A stretch of DNA of 64,000 nt from Hymenobacter rubripertinctus. GTDB taxonomy: Bacteria > Bacteroidota > Bacteroidia > Cytophagales > Hymenobacteraceae. A program made the translations under genes and the position numbers. The stretch is from contig NZ_QYCN01000004.1 in NCBI RefSeq assembly GCF_003583925.1, forward strand, positions 58,419 through 122,418, written 5' to 3'. Positions 4,231 through 40,500 of the stretch are shown piece by piece. A model generated the notes under the pieces. It had not been told where the DNA came from. It saw nothing but the letters and a program-made list of their open reading frames with translations, and ran no database searches. How positions within the stretch are numbered: the stretch's first letter is position 1; each line of letters opens with the position of its first letter.

Positions 4231-7200
4231 CTACGCGTTGGCCAGAATGGGCGGCGTGGCAGCCGCTACTTCCTCCTGGTCGGCCGGCACCTCGGGCTCG
4301 CCCTTGATGCGGATTTTCAGGCTCTCGGTAATCAGGTACATCACCGGCACCACCACCAGCGTGATAAGCGTGGCGAACACCAGACCGAAGATGATGGTCC
4401 AGGCCAGCGGGCCCCAGAACGTCACCGATTCGCCCCCGATGAAGAAGTTGGGCTGGCCTGAGTTGAAGAGCTCGTAGAAGTCGATGTTCAGGCCGATGGC
4501 CAGCGGAATCAGGCCCAGCGTGGCGGCCGTGGCCGTGAGGATTACCGGGTTGAGGCGGGTGCGGCCGGCCAGCACGATGGCTTCGCGCAGGGGCATGCCC
4601 TGGCTGCGCAGCATATCGGTGAATTCGACCAGCAGAATACCGTTTTTCACTACGATACCGGCCAGCGCGATAATACCCACGCCCGTCATCACGATGCTGA
4701 TGTTCATGCCCGTAATGGCCAGGCCCAGCAGCACCCCGATAACCGAGAAAATGATTTCGGCCAGGATGATAATCGGCTTGCTGATGGAGTTGAACTGCAT
4801 CACCAGAATGAGGAAGATGAGGCCAATGGCGCCCACGGCGGCAATGCCGAGGAAGTCGGAGGTTTCCTTCTGGTCTTCCTGGGCGCCGCCCATTTTCACG
4901 GAGTAGCCGGGCGGCACGGGGAACGACTTAAGCGACGTTTCAATCTGGCGCACTACATCGGGGCCGGTGAAGCCGCCGAGCACGTTGGACGAAATCGTAA
5001 TTACGCGCTTCACGTCTTTGCGCTTGATGCCGCCGTAGGTGGTGCCGTAGCGCACATCGGCCACCGAGGCGATGGGCACCTGGCGCACCAGGCCCGTGGC
5101 GTCGCGGAAGGTCAGCGGCGAGTTCAGGATGGCGTCGATGTCGGAGCGGTAGGGCTCGGCGTAGCGCACCTGAATCGGGTACTCGTCGTCGGCCGTTTTG
5201 AATTTGCTGGCCTCGGTGCCGTAAATGGCCGTGCGCACCTCCATACCAATCTGGGCCGTGCTGATGCCCTCGCGGTTGGCGCGGGTACGGTTGATGTCGA
5301 TGGCAATTTCGGGGTTGCGGTCCTGCAGGTTGGAGCGCAGCTGCTCGATGCCGCCGATGTTGGCCGAGTCGATATAGCGGGCTACGTTTTTGCTGAGCGC
5401 GATGAGCGTGGGGTAGTCGTCGCCGGCCACCTCAATGGCGATGGGCTTGCCGGTGGGCGGGCCGCTGCTTTCCTGGTCGACCGAAATTTCGGTGCCCGGA
5501 ATGCCTTTCACCACCTCCCGGATTTTATCCATGTACAGGGCCGTCGAGGGGCCGGTCCGCTCGCTCATCTCCTTGAACGCCACGGCCACTTTGGCCAGGT
5601 TCGATTGCGACGTACCGGCGGCCGAGGCCTCGCCGGGGTCGGCGGCGCCAATGGCCACGTTGGTAATCACCGATTCTACGTCGTGGTTATCCTTGCCAAT
5701 AACGCTGTAGATGCGTTTTTCGAGGATGCGGGCCACCGAGTCGGTGACGGCGACGCGGGTACCGACCGGCATTTTGAGGTAGGTATACACGAACTTGGGG
5801 TCGCCCTTGGGGAAGAAGTCGACCTTGGGGCTACGGGCCCCGATGGCGACAATCGACAGCACGAACAGCACCACCATGCTGAGCATAATCATTTTCGGCC
5901 ACGAAATGGCCCAGCCCACGAGGCGGGCGTAGGCATCCTGGAAGCGGGGCAGCACCTTGGTCTGGAAGCCGGCAATCAGGTGGACGAACACGAAGCGGTT
6001 CAGAATAACGAGCACGGCCAGCGTGAGCATCAGGCTGCCCAAAAAGGTCGAGCCGAACAGGAAGCCGCCGATGGCAATCAGCACCATGATGCCGATGGCA
6101 ATGGACATAGGCCGGTCCCACTTGGGCTTTTCGCCGGTGTGGTGGTCTTCGCGCTCCATGAAGCTCACGGCAAATACCGGGTTCATAATAAAGGCCACGA
6201 TGAGCGACGACATGAGCGTCAGAATCAGCGTTACGGGCAAATAGAACATGAACGAGCCCACAATACCGGGCCAGAACATGAGCGGCACGAATGGCGCGAC
6301 GGTAGTCAGCGTGCCGGCCAATACCGGAATAAATACCTCGCCGGCGGCGTACTTGGCGGCCTGGGCCGTCGTCAGTTCGGGGTGCTCGTGCAGCAGGCGG
6401 TGGGTGTTTTCAATTACCACAATGGCGTCATCGACCACAATACCCAGCGCCAGCAGGAAGGCGAAGAGCACAATCATGTTGAGCGAGAAGTCGAGGGTGG
6501 GCAGCAGCACGAAGGCCAGGAACATGCTCAGCGGCACCGACAGGCCCACGAACAGGGCGTTGGTGGTGCCCATGAAGAACATCAGAATCAGCGTGACCAG
6601 AATAAAGCCGATGATGATGGTGTTGATCAAATCGTGCAGCGTAACGCGGGTGTCGTTGGAGGTGTCGCCGGTAACGGTGATGGTCAGCTCCTGGGGCAGC
6701 GTCAGCTTGGTTTCGGCAATAATTTCCTTGATTTTGTCGGAGGCGTCGATCAGGTTTTCACCCTGGCGCTTCACCACGTTCAGCGTTACGGCCGGCTTGC
6801 CATCGAGGCGGGCGAAGGATTCGCGGTCCTTGAACCCGTCGGTGACGGTGGCAATGTCGCCGAGGCGCACGGCCGAACCGCTCAGGTTTTTGAGCTGGAT
6901 GTTGGCAATGTTATCGGCCCGCACGTACTGGCCGGCCACGCGCACGGCGCGCTTCTGGTTGCCCACGTCCACGGTACCGCCCGAAATGGTCACGTTTTCG
7001 CGGGCAATAGCGGCGCTGATGTCCGAAAAGCTCAGGCGCGACGCCCGCAGTCGGTTCAGGTCCACGTCCACGTTCACCTGCTGGTCGAGGGCGCCAATAA
7101 TATCGACGCGGGTGATTTCGGGCAGGGCCTCAATCTTGTCCTGGAAGTCGTCGGCAAACTTTTTCAGCTGGCTGATGGGCAGGTTGCCGGCCAGGTTGAT

Positions 7201-7644
7201 GTTCATAATGGGCACCTCCGACAGGTTCACTTCCTGCACGGTGGGCGGCGAGGGCAGGTCGTTGGGCAGCTCGGAGCTGGCCTTGTCCACGGCGTCCTTG
7301 ATGAGCTGCTTGGCGTACTGCACATCGACGCCGGAGGTAAACTCCACGTCGACGATGGCGTAGTCCTGGTTCGAAGTCGAAGAGATTTTCTTCACCCCGT
7401 TCACGCTCTTGATTTCCTTTTCGAGCTGGCGCGTGACCAGGTTCTCGATGTCGGTGGGCGAAGTACCGGGGTAAATCGTGGCCACGATAATGCGCGGAAT
7501 CACGATGTCGGGAAACTTCTCCTTGCCCAGCTTGATGTAGGCAAAAATACCCATCACGCACAGTACCAGCGTGATAATGTAAATCGTCGTCTTATTGTCA
7601 ATGGACCAACTAGTGGGTCCGAATTCTTTTCCGGTGTCCTGCAT
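4231..7644 (-). CDS. RND efflux pump, inner-membrane permease
   Basis: A 1137-residue AcrB/MexB-type RND transporter with the expected 12-helix plan: an N-terminal helix (TTIYIITLVLCVMGIFAYIK), a large periplasmic porter loop, five helices, a second helix repeat beginning near MIMLSMVVLFVLSIVAIGA and a second porter loop. The proton-relay acidic pair appears in LGIVVDDAIVVIENTHR near residue 410. It lies last in a minus-strand locus encoding TetR, TolC and an adaptor lipoprotein, so it should export drugs, metals or lipids across both membranes. It is slightly longer than AcrB and has an extended hydrophobic stretch near residues 520-560. The substrate cannot be read from sequence. Confidence 0.95.
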   Translation of the reverse strand: MQDTGKEFGPTSWSIDNKTTIYIITLVLCVMGIFAYIKLGKEKFPDIVIPRIIVATIYPGTSPTDIENLVTRQLEKEIKSVNGVKKISSTSNQDYAIVDVEFTSGVDVQYAKQLIKDAVDKASSELPNDLPSPPTVQEVNLSEVPIMNINLAGNLPISQLKKFADDFQDKIEALPEITRVDIIGALDQQVNVDVDLNRLRASRLSFSDISAAIARENVTISGGTVDVGNQKRAVRVAGQYVRADNIANIQLKNLSGSAVRLGDIATVTDGFKDRESFARLDGKPAVTLNVVKRQGENLIDASDKIKEIIAETKLTLPQELTITVTGDTSNDTRVTLHDLINTIIIGFILVTLILMFFMGTTNALFVGLSVPLSMFLAFVLLPTLDFSLNMIVLFAFLLALGIVVDDAIVVIENTHRLLHEHPELTTAQAAKYAAGEVFIPVLAGTLTTVAPFVPLMFWPGIVGSFMFYLPVTLILTLMSSLIVAFIMNPVFAVSFMEREDHHTGEKPKWDRPMSIAIGIMVLIAIGGFLFGSTFLGSLMLTLAVLVILNRFVFVHLIAGFQTKVLPRFQDAYARLVGWAISWPKMIMLSMVVLFVLSIVAIGARSPKVDFFPKGDPKFVYTYLKMPVGTRVAVTDSVARILEKRIYSVIGKDNHDVESVITNVAIGAADPGEASAAGTSQSNLAKVAVAFKEMSERTGPSTALYMDKIREVVKGIPGTEISVDQESSGPPTGKPIAIEVAGDDYPTLIALSKNVARYIDSANIGGIEQLRSNLQDRNPEIAIDINRTRANREGISTAQIGMEVRTAIYGTEASKFKTADDEYPIQVRYAEPYRSDIDAILNSPLTFRDATGLVRQVPIASVADVRYGTTYGGIKRKDVKRVITISSNVLGGFTGPDVVRQIETSLKSFPVPPGYSVKMGGAQEDQKETSDFLGIAAVGAIGLIFLILVMQFNSISKPIIILAEIIFSVIGVLLGLAITGMNISIVMTGVGIIALAGIVVKNGILLVEFTDMLRSQGMPLREAIVLAGRTRLNPVILTATAATLGLIPLAIGLNIDFYELFNSGQPNFFIGGESVTFWGPLAWTIIFGLVFATLITLVVVPVMYLITESLKIRIKGEPEVPADQEEVAAATPPILANA

Positions 7645-7650
7645 GGGTGA

Positions 7651-8103
7651 AGAAGCTAGGAGTTAGAAGCTAGGAGTTAGAAGACTGAAGGGAGGCACGG
7701 ATGGATTTTCCGTATGCCTCAAGCAGCCGGCCTACTTCGTTCGCTTGTTCAATGAGTGATTCGGTATCGGCGTAGCCTAAGTCGCGGCTCAGCAGAAAAT
7801 AGTACTGGGTTTCTTCGAGCGAGCCTTCGGCCGTGTTGAAGAACCGGAGTTTGTCGCGGGGCCCGCGCTTGCGGAAACCCTCGGCAATGTTGGCCGGAAC
7901 CGACACCGCCGCCCGCCGAAGCTGGGAAGTAAGAGCGAACAATTCGTGCTTAGGAAATGACTCGGTTACCTTATACACCATCAGTACCAACTGGTGGGCT
8001 TTCTGCCACACCACGAGTTGCTGAAAGTTTTTCGCAGGTTCCCGTTTCGCTTCCATGAGTCAACACATAAATTCTAACTCCTAGCTCCTGACTCCTAGCT
8101 TCT
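7651..8103 (-). mobile_element. Inverted-repeat-bounded cassette carrying an S23-like gene
   Basis: Imperfect 33-bp terminal inverted repeats at 7651-7683 (AGAAGCTAGGAGTTAGAAGC...) and 8071-8103 match at all but about three positions. They enclose only the four-helix-bundle gene. The outer arm overlaps the stop codon of the adaptor gene, and the inner arm supplies the last codons of the S23-like gene. The cassette splits the adaptor/RND gene pair. In the transcript the arms would form one long stem with the reading frame in the loop, which is the architecture of 23S rRNA intervening sequences. No transposase is present; mobility is inferred. Confidence 0.55.
7670..8056 (-). CDS. Four-helix bundle protein of the S23/Avd-like family
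   Basis: A 128-residue protein with the hallmarks of the S23 (23S rRNA intervening-sequence) family: FQQLVVWQKAHQLVLMVYKV at the N-terminus, then FPKHELFALTSQLRRAAVSV, PANIAEGFRKRG, and a C-terminal helix with FFNTAEGSLEETQYYFLLSR. Length is normal. Relatives are encoded inside rRNA intervening sequences and, as Avd, next to diversity-generating retroelements, where they bind nucleic acid. No reverse transcriptase is visible here. The final residues (SSNS) and stop codon are encoded by the flanking repeat. The gene is embedded between adaptor and pump genes and is unlikely to be a pump component. Confidence 0.88.
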   Translation of the reverse strand: MEAKREPAKNFQQLVVWQKAHQLVLMVYKVTESFPKHELFALTSQLRRAAVSVPANIAEGFRKRGPRDKLRFFNTAEGSLEETQYYFLLSRDLGYADTESLIEQANEVGRLLEAYGKSIRASLQSSNS

Positions 8104-9244
8104 ACAGTGAAACTGCTTGTCCTTCGTTCAGGCTCTGGTAGCCGGCCGAGATGACCTGGTCGCCGGTTTGCAGGCCCTGGGTTACTTCGACTTTACCGTT
8201 GTAGGTGTTGCCTACCTGAATGACGCGCTTGGTGGCCACTTTCTTGCCGCCTTTCTCGGCAACCACCAGCACGTAGCTGTTCTGCTCGTCGCGCTGCACC
8301 AGGTCAACGGGCAGCACGGTGGCGTTCTGGCGGTTGTAGTTCTCGATGCGCACGTTGGTGACCATGTTGGGGCGCAGGCGGCCGGCTTTGCCGGGGTCGG
8401 CCAGGCGCAGCTCCACGGTGAAGGTGCGGCTGGTAGGGTTGATGGTGCTCGTGACCACGCGCACGGTGGCGACCAGGTCATCTTCACCCAAGTCGGGAAT
8501 AGTTACCAGGGCCTTATCGCCTACTTTGATGCTGTTGGCGTAGGCTTCCGATACATCGACCACGATTTTGCCGCTGCCGCTGCTGCTGAGCAGCTTTACC
8601 ACGGGGGCGCCGGGGGCCACGGTTTCGCCCAGCTTGGGCAGCACGTCATCCACGGTGCCGCTGAAAGGCGCCACTACCCGGTACAGGTCGCGCTGCCGGT
8701 TGAGGGTGGAGAGGTTGCTCTGGAGGGCGCGGTAGTTGTTTTTGGCCTGCAGAAACTGGATTTCGGTACCAATCTGCTGGTCCCAGAGGCGCTTCTGCTT
8801 CTCGTAAATCACCTTGGCCAAATCCATGCGCACCTTCAGCTCGGCTACGCTGGCGTCGAGCACCGAGCCATCCACGGTGGCCAGGGTCTGGCCTTTGCGC
8901 ACCTGGTCGCCGCGCTTTACGCTGAGCGTGGTGAGCGTGCCGGCCGCGCGGGCCGAGACGGTGGCGTTCTGGTCGAAATCGACCCGGCCCTGTACTTCGA
9001 GGTAGCTCTTGAAATCTTCGCTGGCCACCTTAATAACCGATACGGGCGTGGCCTGCAGGGCCACTTCGGCTTCCGAAGGGCCGGTTTTGGCTTCCAGCTC
9101 GGCAATTTTGGCCTGGTTGGTGGCCTGCTCGCTTTTGAGTTTGGCCAGCTCCGCCGCCGGGTCTTTGGAGCCGCAGGAAGAAATTATTAAGCTGATAGCC
9201 AACAGCTGATAGCTACTAGCTTTTTTCAAAAAGGTGAAATTCAT
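8102..9244 (-). CDS. RND efflux periplasmic adaptor lipoprotein (HlyD/MFP family)
   Basis: A 380-residue membrane-fusion protein linking the RND pump to the TolC channel. The N-terminus is a lipoprotein signal with lipobox ISSC (Cys24). A coiled stretch ([20 protein letters not shown]) follows, then the barrel-sandwich half [20 protein letters not shown], a helical hairpin, the second lipoyl half ([19 protein letters not shown]) and beta-barrel/membrane-proximal domains. Oddly, the hydrophobic core of the signal peptide, [14 protein letters not shown], is encoded by a copy of the low-complexity repeat found between genes elsewhere in this window. The gene is separated from its pump gene by the S23-like cassette. 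Confidence 0.93.
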
Positions 9245-9278
9245 GTGAAGGGGGGAAGCTACGAGTCGTGGGAGAAAA

Positions 9279-9311
9279 AGCTAACAGCTAACAGCTCTCA
9301 GCTAACAGCTT
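9279..9311. repeat. AGCTAACAG repeat copy
   Basis: Reiterated AGCTAACAGCTAACAGCTCT-type sequence fills much of the adaptor/tolC spacer. It belongs to the same low-complexity family as copies at 14263, 27206 and 31780. Confidence 0.7.
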
Positions 9312-9314
9312 AAA

Positions 9315-17581: not shown

Positions 17582-18616
17582 ATGCCCCATGACCTCGTCT
17601 TGCGCGTGCTGGCCTTCGGGGGCGGCGTGTTTCTGATCGTAAGTACTATGCTGGCCACCATCCGCTCCTTCGTGCTGCCCCGCAACGAAACGGTGCTGCT
17701 CAACGCCCTCGTTTTCCGCAGCCTGCGCCTCGTATTCGACGCCGTGGCCCGGCTGGGCAGCAACTACGAGCGACGCGACCGGGTGATGGCCCTTTACGCG
17801 CCCGTGGGGCTGGTGGCCCTGCCCATCGTGTGGCTGACGCTGCTGAGCACGAGCTACACCAGCATCTTCTGGGCCCTGGGCGAAGGCCGGCTGGAACGCT
17901 GCTTCCGCATCAGCAACAGTTCGCTGCTGACGCTGGGCTCCGAGGAACCCAGCCACAACATGTGGGCCAACCTGGTATCCTACTCCGAGGCCACGCTGGG
18001 TCTGCTGCTCATGACGCTGCTCATTTCCTACCTGCCTACCATGTACCAGGCCTTTTCGCGGCGCGAAATCACGGTCACGCGCTTGGAGCTGCGGGCCGGG
18101 GCGCGGGCCTCGGCCGTGGAGCTGCTGCGCTGGCTGAACCGCACCGGCTCGCTGCGCGACGATCGGGCACAATGGCAGGACTGGGAGCAGTGGTTCGTGG
18201 AGATTGAAGAAACCCATACTTCGCTGCCCATCCTCTCCTTTTTTCGCTCGCCCCAGCCTGGTCGCTCCTGGGTCACGGCCGCCAGCGTGATTCTGGAAGC
18301 GGCCGCCCTCATCAGCAGCACCGTCGAGCAGCCCCGCGACCCCCACCTGACGCTCTGCTTCAAGGCCGGCTGCGTAGCCATGAACCGGGTGGCGCGCTTT
18401 TTCCGCTTCGAGGAAGACCCCGCCAACACTCCGCCGCCCGACTCCGACAGCGAAGACACATTTGCTCAAACCTACCAACAGCTCCAGGAAGCTGGCATTG
18501 AGCTGCGCAACTTCGCCGACGCCCGCCAGCAGTACCACGAGCTGCGCAGCCGCTACGCCCGCGCCCTGGCCCACCTGGCCCGCGTAACCATGGCCCCGGG
18601 AGTGGTGAGTGAGTGA
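17582..18616 (+). CDS. Ion-channel-like membrane protein
   Basis: A 344-residue protein with an N-terminal helix (LRVLAFGGGVFLIVSTMLAT), a helix at about 70-92 (YAPVGLVALPIVWLTLLSTS), a re-entrant-looking segment RISNSSLLTLGSEEP and a final helix (SEATLGLLLMTLLISYLP). This order resembles two-helix potassium channels, but the filter-like TLGS departs from the usual TVGYG/TIGFG. The rest is a 190-residue soluble helical domain (RREITVTRLELRAGARASAV onward). A cation channel with an atypical filter is the best guess, at moderate confidence. The last codons and stop lie inside a GTGA tandem repeat. Confidence 0.7.
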   Translation: MPHDLVLRVLAFGGGVFLIVSTMLATIRSFVLPRNETVLLNALVFRSLRLVFDAVARLGSNYERRDRVMALYAPVGLVALPIVWLTLLSTSYTSIFWALGEGRLERCFRISNSSLLTLGSEEPSHNMWANLVSYSEATLGLLLMTLLISYLPTMYQAFSRREITVTRLELRAGARASAVELLRWLNRTGSLRDDRAQWQDWEQWFVEIEETHTSLPILSFFRSPQPGRSWVTAASVILEAAALISSTVEQPRDPHLTLCFKAGCVAMNRVARFFRFEEDPANTPPPDSDSEDTFAQTYQQLQEAGIELRNFADARQQYHELRSRYARALAHLARVTMAPGVVSE

Positions 18617-30881: not shown

Positions 30882-31772
30882 TTACTTGCTCGAAGCCAGG
30901 GCCTCGGCCCCGCCTACGATTTCGAGAATCTCGGTGGTAATGGCCGCCTGACGGGTGCGGTTGTAGGTCAGCTTAAGCGACTTGAGCAGCTCGCCGGCGT
31001 TTTCGGTGGCCTTGTCCATGGCCGTCATGCGGGCGCCGTGCTCGGAGGCGTTGCTTTCCAGTACGGCCTTGTAGAGCTGCACCTTCAACGACTGCGGAAT
31101 CAGGGTCTGTACGATTTCCTCCTTGGAAGGGGAGAAAATGTAGTCGGCGTTGGCCGTAGCCGGGGCATTGGCGGGCTGCTCGGTGGGCACGAGGGGCAAC
31201 AACTGCTCGGCGCGCACCACCTGGGTGGCCACGTTGCGGAACTCGTTGTAGACCATCACCACCTCGTCGTACTGGCCGGAGCGGAAGCCATCCATGGCCC
31301 GTTCGGCGGCCTCGCGCACGGTATCGAAGGAAAGCTTACTGAACACATGCTGGTAGTCGCCGAGCAGCGGTCCGCGCTTACCAAAGTAGTCGTGGGCCTT
31401 TTTGCCAATGGCCATCACGGTGATGCTGCCCGCGGCGGCCTGCTGGGCGTAGCGGTTCTGCACCAACCCGTTCACGCCCTTGAACACGTTGCTATTGAAC
31501 GCGCCGGCCAGGCCCCGGTCGGAGGTAATGGCGATGATCAGCACGCGGCGCACCTCGCGCACTACGCTGTAGTCGCTCACCGCCTCCTCGCCGGCCAGGG
31601 CCGTGAGGTTGCTCAGAATGCTGTTGAGCCGCTGGGCGTAGGGCCGCATGCGCAGGATATTATCCTGGGCGCGCCGCAGCTTGGCCGCCGCCACCATTTT
31701 CATGGCTTTGGTAATCTGCTGCGTGCTCTGCACCGACGTAATGCGGCTCCGGACTTCTTTTAAGCTAGCCAT
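30882..31772 (-). CDS. atpG: F-type ATP synthase gamma subunit
   Basis: A 296-residue central-stalk subunit of F1. The N-terminus SLKEVRSRITSVQSTQQITK and AMKMVAAAKLRRAQ, and the C-terminus RMTAMDKATENAGELLKSLK, then LTYNRTRQAAITTEILEIVG, are the conserved coiled-coil elements that rotate inside the alpha-beta hexamer. Size is usual. It is the last gene of the operon in this window; atpD and atpC do not follow, only a terminator. A fold-back repeat separates it from atpA. Confidence 0.97.
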   Translation of the reverse strand: MASLKEVRSRITSVQSTQQITKAMKMVAAAKLRRAQDNILRMRPYAQRLNSILSNLTALAGEEAVSDYSVVREVRRVLIIAITSDRGLAGAFNSNVFKGVNGLVQNRYAQQAAAGSITVMAIGKKAHDYFGKRGPLLGDYQHVFSKLSFDTVREAAERAMDGFRSGQYDEVVMVYNEFRNVATQVVRAEQLLPLVPTEQPANAPATANADYIFSPSKEEIVQTLIPQSLKVQLYKAVLESNASEHGARMTAMDKATENAGELLKSLKLTYNRTRQAAITTEILEIVGGAEALASSK

Positions 31773-31779
31773 TTCGTTG

Positions 31780-31910
31780 AGCTGTTAGCTGTTCGCTGTT
31801 CGCTTGCTTATCACTCTTACTTTAGCAGAGCAATAAGAAGCGGTAGCCATTAACTGCCAACTGCGCCTCCTAAACGAAGGCTGACAGCGAACAGCTAATG
31901 GCTAACAGCT
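31780..31910. repeat. Fold-back repeat between atpA and atpG
   Basis: GAGCTGTTAGCTGTTCGCTG (from 31780) and AGCGAACAGCTAATGGCTAA (from 31886) are inverted versions of one low-complexity arm, with about 80 bp of ordinary DNA between them. Confidence 0.7.
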
Positions 31911-31916
31911 TAAAAT

Positions 31917-34064: not shown

Positions 34065-34070
34065 TGATGT

Positions 34071-34160
34071 AGTTGTCGGTTGTTAGTTGTCAGTTGTCAG
34101 TTTTTAGCTGTTGGTGCCGGGCGGCAAACGCCTGACAACTGACAACTGAAAACTGAAAAC
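34071..34160. repeat. Fold-back repeat between atpF and atpH
   Basis: GTTGTTAGTTGTCAGTTGTC-type sequence (34071-34104) faces an inverted TGACAACTGACAACTGAAAA arm (34133-34160). Confidence 0.7.
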
Positions 34161-40361: not shown

Positions 40362-40500
40362 TTCAATTAAAAATTAAGAGTGAAAAATTAAAAAATTGGT
40401 GGTAAGCCTTTCCGTTTAGGGCCGAATGCTGGCGTCTGAGCCATTTGCTTCATGTTTCCAATTCTTAATTCTTCACTTTTAATTTTTAATTTTTAATTGA
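40362..40500. repeat. A/T-rich fold-back between sprE and the PBP gene
   Basis: TTCAATTAAAAATTAAGAGT (from 40362) pairs with the inverted arm ending TTTTTAATTGAA near 40500; the right arm carries one extra AAATTAA unit. About 55 bp of ordinary DNA separate the arms, and the right arm ends 4 bp before the PBP start codon. Confidence 0.75.

Follow-up and report, generated by a model that had tools for sequence, protein, structure and literature searches.

REP/RAYT and REPIN systems pair a protein gene with many dispersed cognate palindromic repeats, and the RAYT protein is an HUH/Y1 transposase. The elements described here resemble them in joining a protein gene to dispersed cognate repeats, and differ from them in that the protein, S23, is a four-helix bundle. 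S23 genes lie in intervening sequences (IVSs) of 23S rRNA genes, as in Coxiella and Leptospira; an excerpted account (PMC4990558) describes the Coxiella IVS as closed by a terminal stem of 28 bp, with tandem heptamers (GACAGAT) ahead of the S23 open reading frame, and as being excised by RNase III. The same account recalls older proposals in which IVSs were either left behind by transposition or were themselves mobile, with an open reading frame that served mobility, treats S23 genes as being without known function, and gives the Xanthomonas S23 protein as a homopentamer. Heptamer repeats are over-represented in many bacteria (PMC4692102), and described examples include TAACTGA (PMC4679880), GGGAATC (PMC4692102), elements in Geobacter (PMC2700814), and the P6b stems of Nostoc trnL (PMC4476775). 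They share with the arrays reported here their 7-nt tandem units, often intergenic or paired, and differ in that the excerpts of these four accounts name neither S23 nor any agent, the first of them (PMC4679880) speculating on a repeat-binding protein as the possible mobile element. Among open-licence literature we found no paper tying S23 genes in general to heptamer arrays.

The window analyzed here is a stretch of 64,000 nucleotides from Hymenobacter rubripertinctus (contig NZ_QYCN01000004.1), in which an S23 gene enclosed by inverted arms separates the adaptor and RND transporter genes of an efflux operon (Table 1). An initial annotation, made from the sequence alone, had described this cassette as a lone S23 gene between 33-bp imperfect inverted repeats bordered at 7651-8103; the arms are 35 nt each, 389 nt apart and 91% complementary, and the borders were correct to within 3 nt. 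It had likewise noticed correctly that the arms reach into coding sequence: the left arm carries the last codons and stop of the S23 gene, and the stop codon of the adaptor gene (8102-8104) lies within the right arm. The left arm starts 3 nt from the start codon of the RND gene (at 7644). Absent from that description was the composition of the arms, which are built of tandem 7-nt units (GAAGCTA GGAGTTA) in mirrored order. At 27.5, the arm score of the cassette lies above every score from 375 other positions examined in the window, which reach 16.0 at most.

Table 1. Features of the S23 cassette, its neighbors, and S23-less heptamer arrays in the window.
Feature	Coordinates	Strand	Remarks
RND transporter gene (ACR_tran)	4231..7644	-	Downstream neighbor, on the strand of S23; Pfam match
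Left inverted arm	7648..7682	.	Tandem 7-nt array GAAGCTA/GGAGTTA
S23 / 23S_rRNA_IVP four-helix-bundle protein gene	7670..8056	-	128 aa, type A; PF05635 match
Right inverted arm	8072..8106	.	91% complementary to left arm
Membrane-fusion adaptor gene (HlyD_D23)	8102..9244	-	Upstream neighbor, on the strand of S23; Pfam match
S23-less inverted heptamer array, TTAGCTG type	9187..9313	.	Between adaptor and outer-membrane-factor genes; arms match S23 family fam4 above control
S23-less inverted heptamer array, TTAGCTG type	31772..31913	.	Best match fam4, 16.5 vs control maximum 15.5
S23-less inverted heptamer array, TTGTCAG type	34068..34160	.	Best match fam0, 21.5 vs control maximum 19.5
S23-less inverted heptamer-like array, AATTAAA type	40364..40491	.	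fam7/fam10 match not above control

The window S23 protein is a member of PF05635 (1.1e-35, 122.4 bits against a cut-off of 33.8) and resembles the solved structures 2gsc (Xanthomonas XCC0516, 1.9e-20) and 2rld (0.0064). Its gene is the sole recognized gene, and gives the sole Pfam match, between the arms; a Pfam scan of this interval found no known transposase, a Y1 (HUH) transposase included, the gene yielding PF05635 and a weak match to bAvd. The latter, at 28.7 bits, misses the cut-off of 40, and no reverse transcriptase adjoins the gene among the neighbors scanned with Pfam, which comprise efflux genes and a TetR regulator. The kinship with rRNA intervening sequences proposed in the initial annotation is supported, in that the cassette shares with those of Coxiella and Leptospira an S23 gene and terminal inverted arms, and with that of Coxiella also the tandem heptamers, as far as the excerpted account describes them (PMC4990558). 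It differs from them in sitting outside any 23S rRNA gene, in an operon of protein genes.

This architecture is established, and it is wide across phyla. PF05635 is matched in 99 of the 120 Hymenobacter genomes and in 232 of the 296 that make up a phylum sample, and the S23 copies studied are the part of the matches listed that scored best; 150 copies were counted after three weak secondary matches and two duplicates were dropped. All of the first 33 Hymenobacter loci have inverted arms scoring at least 12, and with duplicates removed 108 of 110 copies from 59 Hymenobacter genomes reach the arm threshold, one broken gene (G039, L197) being counted twice in this total; the best arm period is 7 nt in 96 of the 108 and 8 nt in 10. 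Arms are present at 18 of 30 copies in the Bacteroidota sample (period 7 in 14, period 8 in 2), and at several of the 12 loci below threshold heptamers are visible by eye. The ten plasmid loci fetched, from 41 matching records, all have arms, with a period of 7 in eight and 8 in two. Loci from named genomes were the best 80 of 586 confirmed stretches, one of which was too short for scoring; arms are found at 69 of the remaining 79 (period 7 in 62, period 8 in 4), and the possibility that S23 genes generally lack flanking inverted repeats, which would have told against the initial reading, is thus not what these loci present. Two of the 79, from Hymenobacter piscis (L377) and Hymenobacter translucens (L383), share their S23 sequences with genus loci L208 and L018, which leaves 77 that are independent of the genus loci. 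By record titles the named loci span about a dozen phyla, including proteobacterial classes, Bacillota, Bacteroidota, Acidobacteriota, Planctomycetota, Verrucomicrobiota, Chloroflexota, Cloacimonadota, Fibrobacterota, Omnitrophota, candidate phyla and others; no arms were found at the sole archaeal locus, with its 84 nt of upstream flank. Control positions have arms in 15 of 375, 8 of 167 and 5 of 137 cases (28 of 679), with one 7-nt and one 8-nt periodic array in all. Against Rfam, at gathering score, the 80 named loci gave no match to rRNA and matches only to a tRNA and to a 6S RNA. The typical element measures roughly 420-600 bp and consists of a single S23 gene flanked by inverted arrays whose imperfect repeat unit is 7 nt, or sometimes 8 nt, long. 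Two metagenome-assembled genomes have very long arms, of about 190 nt in a Planctomycetota genome (L348) and with 99 nt identical in a Terriglobia genome (L330).

Across the S23 copies compared, arm similarity climbs with S23 identity, and it does so also between elements at different sites (0.292 in 365 pairs, against a mean of 0.202 and a maximum of 0.226 in 500 permutations). Where one family is represented by several elements at a single site, the two arms of an element resemble one another more closely than they do those of its sisters, in 9 of 9 such groups, a comparison in which delimiting the arms by their best mutual match favors ‘own’ over ‘cross’ pairs. The mirrored order of units in the genus set gives an identity of 0.86 in register versus 0.77 with shuffled units, and shuffled arms retain 0.86 of the score after realignment. 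When the heptamers of pooled elements are read inward they have a common AG-containing consensus (A 0.78, G 0.87) that is absent from the reverse complement. Stop codons in all three frames occur in 70 of 186 upstream arms versus 20 when shuffled, and in 43 downstream arms versus 4; such stops, generated by the heptamer period, may bear on the period being 7 or 8 rather than 6 or 9, and as a reason for the 7-nt period this stays an idea, the downstream arms being enriched as well as the upstream ones.

The initial annotation had also suggested that repeat-armed, gene-free spacers elsewhere in the window could be non-autonomous forms of the cassette. Four S23-less inverted heptamer arrays are indeed present (Table 1), three of which match the arms of known S23 families above control; a fifth pair (18086-18572), GC-rich and weak, was set aside. 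Array counts in the genus accompany S23 carriage: TTGTYAG arrays have a median of 133.5 matches in the 12 genomes with an S23 gene having such arms, versus 3 in the 21 PF05635-free genomes (p 2e-6) and 11 in the other 87 genomes (p 4e-6), and GRAGYTA arrays, the type of the window, a median of 38.5 in 8 carriers versus 3 in S23-free genomes (p 2e-4), where the p values treat genomes as independent, with no correction for phylogeny, and matches overlap within long arrays. Read backwards, TTGTYAG gives few matches in most genomes, with a maximum of 37 (G016). The link is not fully specific, since carriers of fam3 are also rich in TTGTYAG arrays (median 80.5); the window genome (G000) reaches 336 matches although the arms of its own fam0 gene are of TTTTTGG type, G087 reaches 187 while lacking a fam0 gene, and the S23-free genome G103 has 85. 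Such persistence of arrays in some S23-free genomes is what would be expected if the host itself made the hairpins, by slippage, template switching or intergenic recombination, with S23 genes as their passengers or parasites, and the different S23-less arrays held at the junctions of relatives, together with sites that show replacement instead of duplication (both described below), point the same way. We nevertheless think this origin unlikely, as S23 type matches the heptamer across sites, cognate arrays are far commoner in carriers, and the pooled elements share an inward polarity and an AG motif.

Occupied and empty sites can be compared on cyanobacterial plasmids, where the same operons occur with and without an S23 element, also between near-identical plasmids. 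At one site Trichormus and Scytonema are occupied, and Nostoc linckia, Aulosira and Tolypothrix are empty, reading ..AAAAAGTAATTAAC..; where the element is present the sequence is AAAAAGTAAT-element-GTAATTAAC, with the 5 bp GTAAT duplicated, and the flanks of the empty sites are 98-99% identical to those of the occupied ones. A second site shows a duplication of TTCTA located at a stop codon, and ATTTAA borders a plasmid hairpin that has no S23 gene. Clean 5-bp duplications are seen at two of the seven plasmid S23 sites compared; the remaining five have no clear duplication, with bases replaced or flanks too diverged, and in Aulosira the element replaced a few bases and provides a new stop codon. 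On a plasmid of Picosynechococcus PCC 7003 a type III-B CRISPR operon has its cas10 and cmr3 genes separated by an S23 element (L186:1495-1851); in Picosynechococcus PCC 7002 the element is absent and cas10 adjoins cmr3. A Pseudanabaena plasmid (L188) has an S23 gene between cas6 and cas4, and plasmid pNsp_c of Nostoc sp. ATCC 53789 (L402) has a different S23 family one gene downstream in an operon that bears another S23 gene in pNsp_a. A screen of four plasmid stretches of about 50 kb turned up no heptamer insertions besides the one S23 element. S23 elements resemble MITEs and inverted-repeat transposons in their inverted ends, gene-less copies and short target duplications at some sites, but are unlike them in having ends that are 7-nt tandem arrays differing widely between families, and no known transposase inside.

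At the adaptor-RND junction, 119 loci in the genus include 18 with S23 genes free of internal stops, one with a remnant, and 100 without an S23 match. The 18 genes are of three types with different heptamers, and among the nine genomes whose adaptors are the most similar, type A is present in four and as the remnant, type B in three and type C in one. Close relatives carry different types and distant genomes share one: G087 and G001 have adaptors 93% identical and S23 proteins 58% identical, and G054 and G005 have S23 proteins 96% identical and adaptors 70% identical. For the latter pair, identity jumps from 0.73 to 0.91 at the left arm and remains high on the right side of the element (0.88, 0.85), and recombination through the flank is therefore possible there. 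Ordinary descent, with the same borders in all relatives, had been named as the outcome that would overturn the initial reading, and the 100 junctions without S23 do not agree with it; yet the window copy looks vertically inherited within a small clade of its nearest relatives. Many S23 copies in the genus are at conserved sites and likewise look vertically inherited.

Other sites in the genus vary as well. For another S23 copy of the window genome, with an internal stop (L004), the junction is only a short spacer in 8 of 8 relatives, at least four of which hold other heptamer arrays there. The divergent family fam7 (L003, L004, L243, L249, L250, L251), mostly with AATTATG-like arms, has its six examined copies at six different sites, and it may be the most mobile S23 family in the genus. 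At the position of the G065 cassette (L195), four relatives (L410, L412-L414) have an apparent small unrelated gene, and G046 (L411) has neither that gene nor the cassette. Target duplications are not readable at the window site, nor at the genus sites compared, because at the latter the relatives have different arrays, unrelated spacers or another gene. A role specific to the efflux operon was rejected, since most junctions are without S23 and many other genes flank S23 elsewhere. Equally, that S23 is a conserved, vertically inherited regulatory gene of this operon, its arms acting as signals for mRNA processing or attenuation, strikes us as highly improbable: occupation of the junction in 18 genomes plus the remnant, and strong purifying selection on S23 (dN/dS 0.04-0.10 against three close relatives), are in its favor, but against it stand the 100 of 119 junctions with no S23 match, the disagreement between S23 and adaptor identities, and the unrelated genes that flank S23 elsewhere.

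The initial annotation had proposed spread, perhaps through an RNA or single-strand intermediate. Spread is partly supported, by presence and absence on plasmids and by the different S23 types at the window junction; an RNA route is not supported. In its fullest form, such a route would have the arms act as an RNA stem, cut as in 23S rRNA, with the element spreading via RNA and a reverse transcriptase provided in trans, and with S23 acting in the manner of Avd. Avd (PF22296), of diversity-generating retroelements (DGRs), is a homologous four-helix bundle by weak HMM match, a homology also stated in an excerpted source (PMC10053308), and the sub-threshold bAvd similarity of the window protein and the RNase III removal of the Coxiella IVS (PMC4990558, in excerpt) both lend this reading some support. 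Unlike S23 genes, Avd genes are mostly beside a reverse transcriptase (RVT_1 adjoins 7 of 9 checked) and are without heptamer arms (0 of the 10 best bAvd matches, at least 65 bits). Among the residues invariant in nine S23 proteins are Q45, R48, S52, N56 and E82, and the S23-invariant residues are not conserved in nine Avd proteins, in an alignment of remote relatives. To our knowledge S23 has no catalytic motif. If the arms were kept as an RNA stem, mismatches would be expected to be of G-U rather than A-C type; 198 elements (two duplicates among them) have 204 G-U-type and 215 A-C-type mismatches (p 0.63), so that a signature of selection for an RNA stem is missing, which is not proof of absence. 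S23 is sense with both neighbors at 40 of 50 loci, antisense to both at 3 and mixed or unclear at 7, as judged from open frames at loci of at most 50% G+C; this orientation is compatible with expression of the gene from the host operon or with a step at the RNA level, and to that extent counts in favor of an RNA route. With G-U mismatches in no excess, 5-bp duplications at two sites, and the differences from Avd in neighbors, arms and conserved residues, we regard the RNA-level element as quite unlikely.

We consider it rather probable that the cassette instead belongs to a widespread class of minimal mobile elements, comprising S23-encoding and S23-less hairpins, of which the rRNA intervening sequence is a special case. 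The mobility of S23 elements appears well supported on plasmids and by genome comparison, and a part for S23 in it is inferred. S23, probably as a pentameric ring, would recognize its own heptamers as DNA, in a double strand or an extruded hairpin, and with some nuclease or with replication or repair enzymes would copy or move the hairpin, with or without the gene. Insertion would be mostly into gaps between co-oriented genes, where the S23 gene would then probably be read from the host operon, and sense copies would be favored for this reason; S23-bearing intervening sequences in 23S rRNA would have arisen where a copy inserted into an rRNA gene. The class is apparently unrecognized as such, in that no element known to us combines an S23 protein with such ends, the S23-bearing rRNA intervening sequence being the special case already known. 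A bolder proposal, which we advance tentatively and hold to be possible but doubtful, is that S23 is a new kind of mobilizing protein, a four-helix-bundle ring able to recognize tandem heptamers in DNA and to mobilize them although it has no transposase, recombinase or polymerase domain of any known kind; on this view S23 would account for much of the heptamer repeat content of bacteria, and rRNA intervening sequences would be the most familiar of its by-products.

With S23 and heptamer repeats tied together, the function of the one and the origin of the other both become testable, and S23-bearing rRNA intervening sequences would no longer be an oddity but one of the sites at which a general element inserts. 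Mobile S23 hairpins would help to explain the fast-changing spacers between operon genes at the junctions compared, and S23 elements may account for scattered 7-base repeats of hitherto unexplained origin.
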